Shown in pieces: positions 48,243 to 52,591 of a DNA stretch of 52,644 nucleotides. The notes under the pieces were generated by a model. That model was given only the letters and a program-made list of their open reading frames with translations. It did no database searches and was not told the origin of the DNA. The DNA is from Sphaerochaeta sp. Phil3 (lineage in GTDB: Bacteria > Spirochaetota > Spirochaetia > Sphaerochaetales > Sphaerochaetaceae), in contig MSGT01000072.1 in assembly GCA_001940825.1 (NCBI GenBank), positions 1 through 52,644 on the forward strand. Reading direction: 5' to 3'. The position numbers and the translations under genes were made by a program. Every line of letters starts with the position of its first letter. Within the stretch, counting starts at the first letter, position 1.

Positions 48243-48279
48243 ATAAAAAAACCCCAATATCATAAGTCGAAATTGGGTT
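48243..48279 (-). promoter_or_regulatory. terminator-like hairpin in the glycosidase leader
   Basis: On the minus strand AACCCAAT (48279-48272), 13-nt loop, ATTGGGGTT (48258-48250, one bulged G), then a run of seven T. It lies just after the expected transcription start (about 48280) and just before AGGAG and the TTG start, as an attenuator would. Confidence 0.6.
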
Positions 48280-48315: not shown

Positions 48316-48345
48316 ATAAATTGTAAGAAAACTGTAAGGGAAAGT

Positions 48346-48370
48346 CCAATGGAAAAAGGCTTTTCCTTGG
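48346..48370 (-). terminator. hairpin after the antitoxin gene
   Basis: CCAATGGAAAA (48346-48356) and TTTTCCTTGG (48361-48370) pair with one bulge. On the minus strand it follows the antitoxin stop by about 50 nt; no clear T-run. Confidence 0.45.
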
Positions 48371-48418
48371 TTAAAAAATGTAGTCCAGACACCCTTATTT
48401 CAATAAAACATTTATGAA

Positions 48419-48679
48419 TCAGGGCTCTTTCACCTCTTGCACCTCTTGGGCTTTCCCTTCCTCCAATTGCTTCTTTGATTCGATCAACCAAGAAAAATTG
48501 GCAGAGTCCGCCCTAATGTAGGTGTTTTCAATGAGATTGTTGAACGCGTCTTCGTTGATTATCACAACGTTTCCACCCTCTCCCTTTCTGGTTACAACCA
48601 CAGTCTCATAGTCTTCAGAGACGGCTTTCATATAGGTACTCATGCCCGACTTAAGCTTAGAATAGTCAACAGACATCAT
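48419..48679 (-). CDS. Phd/YefM-family antitoxin, apparently orphan
   Basis: Small protein of 86 aa. SVDYSKLKSGMSTYMKAVSEDYETVVVTRKGEGGNVVIINEDAFNNLIENTYI (read in parts, about 3-55) follows the Phd/YefM pattern: N-terminal DNA-binding half, the VVVTR strand, NVVII and the E-x-T-Y(L/I) end, then a charged tail that would neutralise a toxin. No RelE/YoeB/Doc-like toxin lies downstream, where one is expected: only 155 nt remain before the glycosidase promoter and hairpins. It lies 53 nt after the second DUF262 gene on the same strand, so it may belong to that operon. Two adjacent ATGs, no good ribosome binding site. Confidence 0.75.
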   Translation of the reverse strand: MMSVDYSKLKSGMSTYMKAVSEDYETVVVTRKGEGGNVVIINEDAFNNLIENTYIRADSANFSWLIESKKQLEEGKAQEVQEVKEP

Positions 48680-48732
48680 TTTCTACTTATATCCAAACAC
48701 AAGCTACTGTATTCGTCAAACGTCAACGAAAC

Positions 48733-50844
48733 TCACCCTTTCAAGTATTCTTTGAGAAGAAGAATCCTGTCCTCGCAATCAATACCACCTTCTTGTTTAA
48801 TTGACAACATATCAACTTCAGAATCATCTTCTGTTCTCAGAATCTTGTAAGAATCGTTTTCACAAATGATATACAAACCAGAAGGAAAGGTTAAACGTTG
48901 CCCATACCAAGTCCTATCAACATGCGCTTCATCCGCACACCAAAGATAAGGCATATATGAGTTTGACGACAAATTTGAACTGGTTTGCAATACGGTGTAA
49001 AGATACGGACTCTTCGAAGCATCTTCGTTACGATACTGCCCATAAGCACCTGGCCTGAATTCATTGTATTTGACATAGTAATACTGGAAACTAAATGAGT
49101 GCTTTTCTTCCATTTCGGAGAGAAAACCATCAATCTTTTTCTGTAAAATGTCATTTGTAAAAGAGGAACACGTTTTCAACAGGTCTATCAAAATCCTATG
49201 AGTATTATCAAACCCTTCATAAGAACTCCTATGGAACAATTTAATCCAAGAATCCTTTCGTGAAGAAGATCCAAACTGGTAGAGATGGTTTCTTCCCTCA
49301 TATTGGGAATAATTCCCAATAGACATAAGAGCGCAATCAACCTTGTCCCAATCACAATCAAACAGAGTATAGAAGGCTTCAACCTTATCAAGATTGTCCA
49401 GGCCTACAATACCTATTTGCCCATGCAGCAAATCGTGATCCTCCAATTTAAACAGACTATCAATATCGGACTGAGAGTTCGATGTGGCAAGAAAACAAAT
49501 TTTTTCCTTTTCTTCCTGTAGTTGGTGTCCATTGAAATTGAGAGCGATTGAGTCGTCTATTTTACCCGTAAGAATAATTGAATCAATTTGGGACAAGATT
49601 CCAGGAATTCTGTTTCCCGAAACCCTTTCAGCAATTTCATCTTCAGAATTCTGAATTAGATTATTCACTATTCTTATTCTTCGGCCAAAAGCATCACCAA
49701 CGGCATCCTTGTTCTGAAGATAAACAACGATAGAATACAAAAGCAAGAATCTATTCATTGGGAAGTCGTCGGAATGCAAGCAATCCCCAAAAATATCAAT
49801 TTCAACTCTTTCACCGACAAGGATTTTTCCAGCTTCATGCTCATGTGCCATAAAAGACACAAGGAACTCTTCTACGGAGAAATCACCACACCAACAGTCA
49901 AAGAAGGCCTCTAGAAGTTCTATGTTCTTCATAGAAGAAAAAAGCTCTCCGATAAGAGAAAAAACATCTGACGAATAGAATCTAGGGGATTCTCCGTTTT
50001 TATAGCAAATAACGGCACAGATAAATTTAAAATATCTAAGAAATTCATTGTCTGTTGTGGAATCTTCAGCTCGATATTTCCACAACAAATCCGACCATTC
50101 TCTATCAATCTTTCCAGCAATTCTAGCGGAAACACAAGGGGATAGTTTTCTTATAACCCTTTCCAACTCCGCTTTGAAGTGTTCGAACAATGTAAGAGGC
50201 TTCCCTCTTGAATTCATTTTGATATAAAGATCATCGGTCAATCCCATTTCCTTTACTGGTAGGAAATAAAAGCTGATAGCCCCGGATTTGAGTTTTTCCC
50301 ATAGGCCTTCCACTTTAGAGAACTTTGAATTGATTGAATCCAACATCACCAACATAGAACTCACAGTTGCATCCTTCTTCCAATCCAAAGGGAACCAGGG
50401 TTGATTGATTATTTCATTGGAAAGGGAACCCGAAAATGAAGGATGAAATTCAATCAGTTCTAAACAAAAATCCCTAGCGCTGGGTCTTGTTTCATAAGAA
50501 AAACCTTTAAGAAAAAGACACTCCGTTTCAGGGACATTCTCTTTTCGAGCCGCATACCAGTAAAGCAAAAACAAAGTCGTTAGTCTTTGTTGCCCGTCAA
50601 GAGGAGTCATTACTCCTTTTTCATCAACATCTCCATAAATAAAATCCAATGTGATGGGTTTCTCTACAACAGCGGAATACAGGGACTCCAAGAACCTTTC
50701 CCTTATGCGTTCGATTCCAAGATCTTTCCGACCTTGTGCATAGTCCCTCTGAATAATTGGAATTACTATTTTACGGATAGCAACAGACTCGTTATCAGAA
50801 CCAACTTCGAATATATCAGCAAAAGTATGTAGGGTAGCACTCAT
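48733..50844 (-). CDS. DUF262-domain protein, large form without HNH
   Basis: Protein of 703 aa. The N-terminal DUF262 (ParB/Srx-like NTPase or nuclease fold) shows IPIIQRDYAQGR (about 28-39) and the diagnostic MTPLDGQQRLTTLFLLYWY (about 79-97). A long helical body follows (SRGKPLTLFEHFKAELE is the usual third motif, about 222-238). The C-terminal part (KYNEFRPGAYGQYR, LSSNSYMPYLW) is of a type I associate with large DUF262 proteins, but there is no DUF1524 HNH motif. ATG at 50844 has AGGAGA upstream and follows the stop of the other DUF262 gene after 1 nt. Base composition is visibly AT-richer than the core genes. A defence role is inferred. Confidence 0.82.
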   Translation of the reverse strand: MSATLHTFADIFEVGSDNESVAIRKIVIPIIQRDYAQGRKDLGIERIRERFLESLYSAVVEKPITLDFIYGDVDEKGVMTPLDGQQRLTTLFLLYWYAARKENVPETECLFLKGFSYETRPSARDFCLELIEFHPSFSGSLSNEIINQPWFPLDWKKDATVSSMLVMLDSINSKFSKVEGLWEKLKSGAISFYFLPVKEMGLTDDLYIKMNSRGKPLTLFEHFKAELERVIRKLSPCVSARIAGKIDREWSDLLWKYRAEDSTTDNEFLRYFKFICAVICYKNGESPRFYSSDVFSLIGELFSSMKNIELLEAFFDCWCGDFSVEEFLVSFMAHEHEAGKILVGERVEIDIFGDCLHSDDFPMNRFLLLYSIVVYLQNKDAVGDAFGRRIRIVNNLIQNSEDEIAERVSGNRIPGILSQIDSIILTGKIDDSIALNFNGHQLQEEKEKICFLATSNSQSDIDSLFKLEDHDLLHGQIGIVGLDNLDKVEAFYTLFDCDWDKVDCALMSIGNYSQYEGRNHLYQFGSSSRKDSWIKLFHRSSYEGFDNTHRILIDLLKTCSSFTNDILQKKIDGFLSEMEEKHSFSFQYYYVKYNEFRPGAYGQYRNEDASKSPYLYTVLQTSSNLSSNSYMPYLWCADEAHVDRTWYGQRLTFPSGLYIICENDSYKILRTEDDSEVDMLSIKQEGGIDCEDRILLLKEYLKG

Positions 50845-50845
50845 T

Positions 50846-52591
50846 TCACATCTCCTGTTTTTCAAAATGTATTGGGCTTTGGAGGTATTGTTGTAAAACA
50901 ATATTTATTGCATTTATATAATCTTCTCGATCCGCAGGCCCCCAGAAATGAAGCTGAGCATCGGAGGATTTTGTATAATACTTTAAAAAGACCATCTTCG
51001 TGCAGAATGGAATGTATTGTCCTTTTTTATCCATATTGACAATTTCGGTTCTTTTTACATCGAATGTTGAGTTGTTTAGGGCTGCATTGTCCCTAGCGTT
51101 AAGCAAGGCCATATTCGAAATACAATGCAAATAATCAAGACTTCCTGGAACAGAGAGCTTTCTCTCGACTTGTTCCTGAATACCGTTGAATTCATCACCC
51201 GTCAACCTTGGGTTTTTAAGAGCGGCCTGCATCCGTAAGACCAAATCAGAATCGTTATCAACTACTTGAACAGAAGGCAATTGATATCTAATCCATTCTT
51301 TCTGATCCTCTTGCTTTCGCAACCCCTTCGATTGTTGGGCATGGATATGTTCAAGGCTCCATACAACCCTCCCATTGTTATCCATCTTGAACAGATTAAA
51401 AGGAAACCATTGTGTTTTTTCGCCATTTCTACGAACGGATTCAACATTGAAAAGCAGTAGCAACCTCGTCATCTTTCTTTTTGGGGTGGCATTTTCATAA
51501 CTAAGATCAGAATAGTTTTCGGGAATCTTGATACTGTCACGAATCAAATCATCGAGAGACTCCCCAAAAGCTTCCTTTGTTTTATCTTTGGAAGCATCGT
51601 ATACATCCTGCAATGTACAGTATTCCGAGGCAATCAAATATCCAATTTTATGAAACAACTCATGGTTTTCATACCAATCTTTCAGAATCAAGAAAGTGTG
51701 CTGGATTCTTCTCCAAATTTCTTCTAAGCACATTTCGCTACGCATGGAATCAAACTTAAAAAAAGTATAATAGACCTCTCTGTTATCACAGGGCTTATTT
51801 GCAATCAGATCCAAAACCAAATCTATCCTAGTTTGGAAACTGCCATTCGTAGTATTTGTTAGAAAAAACCAAAAAGAATCGTTATGAAGTTCCCTTTCAA
51901 CGTTATCCCATTGAAGTGCAATTTCTTCCTTCTTCTCCCGTGTAATCCCAGAATTGGCTCCTTCGCTAAGAAACATAGCTTTTACCAGTTCAGCATTGGT
52001 CAATGGGATTCTTCCAACATTGAGCCTTGTAAACATATCAATTGCAGATTCATCATCGTTTGCAGGAACTTCATACCAAATGACTTTGACAATCTTATCA
52101 AAATACCCATTTATATCAGTTAATACAGATTGTTTGTTTTTGTTTTCAAACCAATTCTGAATATTCTCATAAGCATTACAGATAAACCAAAAATCGATGT
52201 TTTCATTCCTTCTTGAAGAATCCAACTCTTTTAGAAAACTTTCTTGCTTGTCTCTTGTTTCATAAAACAAAGAGAACTGAGGACTTGGAAGGAATCCTTT
52301 GCTTCCAATATTCATGTATTTATAAATAAGATAAATAGTTGTCAACCGTTGTTGTCCATCAACGATCTCATATTTTCCATCTTTTCTACGAAGAACAACA
52401 GGTTGAAGACAGTAATTCGACGTGCCTCCAGTTGCATAAATATCGTCTAATAGTCTGTCAATCTCAGTTTTTCCCCATCTGTAGCCTCTCTGATATGAAG
52501 GGACATAAAAATCCCCCTTGATATCACCAACAGCTTTCAACTCAAAAAACACTTCTTTATCCATACCATTTAAACTCCTTCTTTCAATCAT
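50846..52591 (-). CDS. DUF262-DUF1524 protein (GmrSD-like), putative defence nuclease
   Basis: Protein of 581 aa. DUF262 domain: FYVPSYQRGYRWGKTEIDRLLDDI (about 28-51) and YEIVDGQQRLTTIYLIY (about 74-90), then MFTRLNVGRIPLTNAELVKAMFL (about 182-204). The C-terminal DUF1524 HNH-like nuclease part is shown by VWSLEHIHAQQSK (catalytic EHI-x-x-Q context) and ISNMALLNARDNAALNNSTFDVKR. This is the architecture of GmrSD type IV restriction enzymes, which cut modified phage DNA. Two starts are possible: ATG 52591 after AAGGAGG (chosen) and ATG 52564 after AAGGAG. AT-rich, at the window edge; upstream genes are unseen. Confidence 0.85.
   Translation of the reverse strand: MIERRSLNGMDKEVFFELKAVGDIKGDFYVPSYQRGYRWGKTEIDRLLDDIYATGGTSNYCLQPVVLRRKDGKYEIVDGQQRLTTIYLIYKYMNIGSKGFLPSPQFSLFYETRDKQESFLKELDSSRRNENIDFWFICNAYENIQNWFENKNKQSVLTDINGYFDKIVKVIWYEVPANDDESAIDMFTRLNVGRIPLTNAELVKAMFLSEGANSGITREKKEEIALQWDNVERELHNDSFWFFLTNTTNGSFQTRIDLVLDLIANKPCDNREVYYTFFKFDSMRSEMCLEEIWRRIQHTFLILKDWYENHELFHKIGYLIASEYCTLQDVYDASKDKTKEAFGESLDDLIRDSIKIPENYSDLSYENATPKRKMTRLLLLFNVESVRRNGEKTQWFPFNLFKMDNNGRVVWSLEHIHAQQSKGLRKQEDQKEWIRYQLPSVQVVDNDSDLVLRMQAALKNPRLTGDEFNGIQEQVERKLSVPGSLDYLHCISNMALLNARDNAALNNSTFDVKRTEIVNMDKKGQYIPFCTKMVFLKYYTKSSDAQLHFWGPADREDYINAINIVLQQYLQSPIHFEKQEM

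Follow-up and report, generated by a model that had tools for sequence, protein, structure and literature searches.

Three ORFs, all on the minus strand, were identified at one end of the window, which is the whole 52,644-nucleotide stretch of DNA analyzed here and an entire contig (C72). Gene A (50846-52564, minus strand) is predicted to encode a 572-amino-acid (aa) subunit resembling GrwA of the type IV restriction system GrwAB, which is GmrSD-like and comes from WASA strains of V. cholerae (PMC12137116). An alternative in-frame ATG of A at position 52591 would give a protein of 581 aa, and a good ribosome-binding site is found there also. The contig ends 53 to 80 nt upstream of A, with sequence visible only downstream of this gene. 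Gene B (48733-50844, minus strand), predicted to encode a GrwB-like subunit of 703 aa, starts 1 nt past the stop codon of A, and its likely ribosome-binding site, as read from the sequence, lies within the last codons of A. The third ORF (48419-48679, minus strand) is located 53 nt downstream of B and encodes an 86-aa YefM/Phd-type antitoxin. The assignments of A and B are based on Pfam matches, alignment invariants, and AlphaFold models, and that of the antitoxin on Pfam family PF02604 and on matches to YefM in the PDB. The ORF and Pfam analyses agree with the sequence-only reading of this locus, which had described a DUF262-DUF1524 gene, a DUF262 gene without HNH 1 nt further on, and a YefM-type antitoxin gene after another 53 nt, all on one strand. 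The same reading had called all three genes AT-richer than the core. This holds for A and B (GC contents of 0.369 and 0.383 and GC3 values of 0.354 and 0.358, respectively, with 0.494 GC for the contig up to position 48263) but not for the codon usage of the antitoxin gene (GC, 0.444), whose GC3 of 0.563 lies in the range of host genes (0.56 to 0.62).

The N-terminal DUF262 domain of A contains Q25 and R26, a DGQQR motif (residues 69 to 73), and an FxxxN motif (residues 178 to 182) and is followed by a helical linker and a C-terminal DUF1524 His-Me nuclease domain with E405, H406, N484, and N493. Pfam identified GmrSD_N in A (6.6e-35), as well as a weak and partial match to GmrSD_C (1.3e-4; 22.3 bits, under the cut-off of 23). 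The catalytic residues R73, H406, N484, and N493 were invariant in all 66 A-B pairs compared, and the spacing between the two asparagines was 9 in every pair. The AlphaFold model of A (mean pLDDT, 80.6) resembled SspE (Z, 17.1), DndI (Z, 16.2), and BrxU (Z, 6.8) across most of its length; the alignments used for the structure models left out plasmid-derived rows. A thus has the hallmarks of a single-chain GmrSD enzyme, namely, DUF262 and DUF1524 together in one protein and an SspE/BrxU-like fold, with GmrSD_C scoring slightly below the Pfam cut-off.

In B, the only Pfam match was to GmrSD_N (8.7e-19). Its N-terminal DUF262 domain contains QRD (residues 32 to 34), DGQQR (residues 83 to 87), and YxxxN (residues 207 to 211) motifs and is followed by a helical middle part and a long C-terminal region without HNH. 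R87 was invariant in the 66 pairs, and none of the 66 B proteins contained an HNH motif. The AlphaFold model of B (mean pLDDT, 85.4) resembled DndI and SspE over approximately residues 1 to 444 (Z, ~13), and a Foldseek search of the PDB with the whole model gave no confident match (best E value, 0.6). No specific family for B was found in PADLOC, NCBIfam, or PHROGs. PADLOC-DB 2.0.0 (2023), which predates GrwAB, has no dedicated model for B and gave only short, weak SspE, Orf5, and HEC-06 matches over DUF262.

Homologues of B were collected from named genomes, 139 genomes of the window's family, 393 genomes of its phylum, a sample of the family Lachnospiraceae (that of L024), a sample of the Dethiobacter phylum, and plasmids. 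A gene for A was located directly upstream and on the same strand in 86 of the 87 B genes surveyed (with near-duplicates L029/L030, L033-L036, and L075/L136 among the counted loci), and relatives were gathered with B as the query, so that this rate is that of B with A and not of A with B. The two genes mostly overlapped or were a few nucleotides apart. The sole exception (L027) lies at a contig edge, where the last 47 codons of A are still present. With B as the query, A was upstream in each of the 23 loci that came from named genomes, which represent several phyla, and the A-then-B order was also seen in 12 of 13 loci on viral contigs. In two genomes belonging to the same family as the window, A and B are naturally fused (L059:6251-10186, minus strand, 1,311 aa; L065:1472-5581, plus strand, 1,369 aa), with the A profile matching at the front and the B profile at the back of both proteins. 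Because of this pairing and the two spirochete fusions, A and B are regarded as a single unit. This unit is widespread across phyla: matches to the B profile, some of them weak, were obtained in ~11% of the sampled genomes of the window's phylum, and the pair is also present in Bacillota, Bacteroidota, Actinomycetota, Pseudomonadota, and Campylobacterota, in viral contigs, and in plasmids of several phyla, where the copies are annotated as two neighboring DUF262 genes.

Two further features were noted near such pairs. A third DUF262 gene (L075:10282-12108, minus strand) is convergent to the A-B pair on an Entomospira culicis plasmid, and in two members of the Dethiobacter phylum sample a 136- to 139-aa protein that weakly matches HARE-HTH and has a subthreshold Phd-like stretch is encoded just upstream of A (L196:6935-7354 and L197:6960-7370, both on the minus strand).

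The survey bears out the fixed pairing of the 703-aa protein with a DUF262-DUF1524 protein that had been proposed from the window, and the Pfam matches, the pairing, and the SspE/DndI/BrxU-like model are in line with the accompanying view that the pair is GmrSD related and probably defensive. It could also be argued that A works on its own as an ordinary GmrSD-type enzyme of one chain, with B as an accessory protein providing, for example, protection against phage inhibitors. The architecture of A is complete with respect to GmrSD, SspE, and BrxU, and an option of this type has been named for TgvA by the authors describing TgvAB (PMC11411939). However, A and B always occurred together in the B-based searches where the contig shows both, the two are fused in nature, and GrwAB needs both of its genes (PMC12137116), which makes this explanation unlikely.

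We consider it highly probable that A and B together make up a type IV (modification-dependent) restriction system with two proteins, of the same kind as GrwAB, and that the antitoxin has no role in it; the pair is probably functional as a restriction system. The gene order, the coupled start of B, and the two fusions are consistent with A and B being cotranslated and acting as one complex. Both DUF262 domains would bind and hydrolyze a nucleoside triphosphate (NTP) via their DGQQR pockets, thereby licensing activity, as judged from the conservation of these residues and from GrwA R81A and GrwB R86A, which are published mutants of the DGQQR arginines (PMC12137116). Recognition of modified incoming phage DNA would fall, at least in part, to the C-terminal two-thirds of B, a variable region marked by replacement or fast divergence, and the DNA would then be cut by the His-Me nuclease of A, whose residues are conserved. 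The earlier proposal that the second DUF262 protein is a sensor is compatible with this scheme, in which B is plausible as a sensor or a partner subunit. Both models have their closest PDB relatives in SspE and DndI, and the system might instead sense a signal other than modified phage bases, such as phosphorothioation in the host, which SspE and DndI sense, and work with a partner system encoded elsewhere. No dnd or ssp genes were found beside the pairs whose neighboring annotation was read, however, and GrwAB acts alone in E. coli (PMC12137116), so that we regard phosphorothioation sensing as decidedly improbable.

The antitoxin matches PF02604 (Phd/YefM; 1.6e-10) and is a homologue of YefM (structure 2a6q; E value, 1.1e-6), but in contrast to YefM-YoeB modules, its gene has no adjoining toxin gene. 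No toxin-like ORF adjoins positions 48419 to 48679, and no YoeB was found across the whole genome to which the window belongs, in a search whose positive control was detected in E. coli; the absence of a toxin had been read correctly from the window. The genome contains two ParE genes, both on other contigs: one on C64 and one on C58 beside a second Phd gene. The latter two, a Phd-type antitoxin gene followed by a ParE toxin gene (C58, 63394-63925), form an apparently complete module. The nearest relative of the antitoxin found was a YefM protein (49% identity) encoded in L079 and followed by a YoeB-like ORF.

A Phd/YefM ORF was located downstream of B in only 2 of the 80 loci having at least 400 nt of downstream sequence, i.e., in the window and in L040. 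In L040, a complete Phd-ParE module (PF02604 and PF05016) is present, its antitoxin gene being located 54 nt after B; that antitoxin and its counterpart in the window share 23% identity, and 15 Phd matches were obtained in the L040 genome. Among the other 138 genomes of the family, 18 of which carry the A-B pair, the antitoxin of the window gave one weak partial match, on a contig different from that of the pair in the same genome.

The similarity of nine congeneric genomes to the window stops at approximately position 48330, just past the antitoxin gene, and in these genomes the gene flanking a neighboring 484-aa gene is instead a conserved one, called radical-SAM-like on the basis of its sequence rather than of a family search. 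Since the nine genomes lack the antitoxin gene at this site and the similarity ends there, the antitoxin gene is placed inside a strain-specific insert, whose approximate edge (no strand) lies at 48330-48418. Its host-like GC3 would also have fitted a long-resident host gene; this explanation was dropped because of the absence of the gene from the site in the nine congeneric genomes. Rather, the composition of the antitoxin gene suggests an arrival separate from that of A and B. In the genome to which the window belongs, the radical-SAM-like gene that flanks this site in the nine congeneric genomes lies on another contig (C8, 33241-36765; L244), where it is inverted with respect to its neighbors and is followed by AT-rich accessory ORFs and the contig end; the insert may have its other edge there.

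The three genes had originally been read as one candidate defense unit, with the YefM-like protein either as a repressor of the operon or as a safety device that holds A-B in check. This is very improbable: although the antitoxin gene is on the same strand as the pair, close downstream of B with no terminator-like site between the two, and inside the strain-specific insert, and although L040 has a Phd-type antitoxin gene at nearly the same distance, the linkage is confined to two loci, the L040 antitoxin belongs to a different toxin-antitoxin type with a ParE toxin of its own, the GC3 of the antitoxin gene differs from that of the pair, and the gene is virtually absent from the other family genomes, including those with the pair. 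The three-gene unit was rejected on these grounds of linkage, composition, and differing antitoxin types, and with it the role of repressor or safety device. The antitoxin is most readily explained as an orphan YefM encoded at the insert's edge, unrelated to the pair and presumably without a role in its activity, an explanation that keeps it from being annotated as a defense component.

While the DUF262 domain of B kept pace with A in the 66 pairs, B diverged faster in its middle and C-terminal parts. Between L130 and L133, which belong to one genus, the DUF262 domains of B are 86% identical and the rest of B is 32% identical (shuffled baseline, 24%; maximum, 28%), and blastp detected no significant similarity in B past approximately residue 308. 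In A of the same two loci, an identity of 80% to 90% falls to ~50% in the C-terminal half. A mosaic pattern was also seen in B of L137 and L140, where the DUF262 domains are nearly identical and the remainder is very different. Clear examples of C-terminal replacement are few and come mainly from one genus. These patterns suggest that the part of B beyond DUF262 is a recognition region that is exchangeable or evolves very fast and that B could combine an NTP-driven core that stays constant with a recognition part that can be swapped. More tentatively, B may be a modular, HsdS-like specificity subunit, with the DUF262 domain as a constant "socket" for A, the swappable or diversifying C-terminal two-thirds determining what is recognized, be it a DNA modification or a feature of the phage, and the C-terminal half of A covarying; we consider this possible but less likely than not. 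How such enzymes recognize modified DNA has been called unknown in a review (PMC12409362), and the changes in B outside DUF262 offer a handle on this question.

Among known systems, the single-chain GmrSD family (Eco94GmrSD, BrxU, SspE, and DndI) shares the architecture and fold of A, but its members are lone proteins, whereas A of the window has a second DUF262 partner. ptuXYZ (DUF262, an ATPase, and a YoeB-like RNase; PMC11980606), a known link between DUF262 and a toxin, was rejected, as its gene content differs. TgvAB of V. cholerae VPI-2 is a two-protein GmrSD-like type IV system and a relative of GrwAB (PMC11411939). It resembles the pair in having DUF262 in both proteins and DUF1524 in one, but its DUF262-only gene is the first of the two, whereas that of the window is the second, and it resides in a type I restriction-modification operon. 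TgvA has been described as distinct from GrwB outside DUF262.

The closest counterpart is GrwAB, for which both genes as well as GrwA R81, GrwB R86, and the nuclease residues H431, N521, and N530 are all required; phage Bas24 escapers were altered in DpdA, the inserter of a 7-deazaguanine modification (PMC12137116). In GrwAB, as in the window, two adjacent codirectional genes encode first a DUF262-DUF1524 protein and then a DUF262-only protein with a long C terminus, and QR, DGQQR, and (F/Y)xxxN motifs and the H...N(+9)N nuclease residues are present. R87 of B is equivalent to R86 of GrwB, and R73, H406, N484, and N493 of A are equivalent to R81, H431, N521, and N530 of GrwAB. The two systems come from Spirochaetota and V. 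cholerae, respectively, and are likened by architecture and motif positions and not by direct sequence identity; no Vibrio pair was found in the plasmid and E. coli searches. As to the proposal of a less-described variant, the kind has been described experimentally (PMC12137116), and the two findings named in advance as telling against the three-gene unit, an unlinked antitoxin and an already catalogued pair, both essentially hold. Because the layout and gene order are the same and the equivalent residues are invariant in all 66 pairs, the pair is filed as GrwAB-like and, as matched by architecture and motif positions, is a member of this recently described kind, whose two-gene layout is widespread beyond V. 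cholerae.
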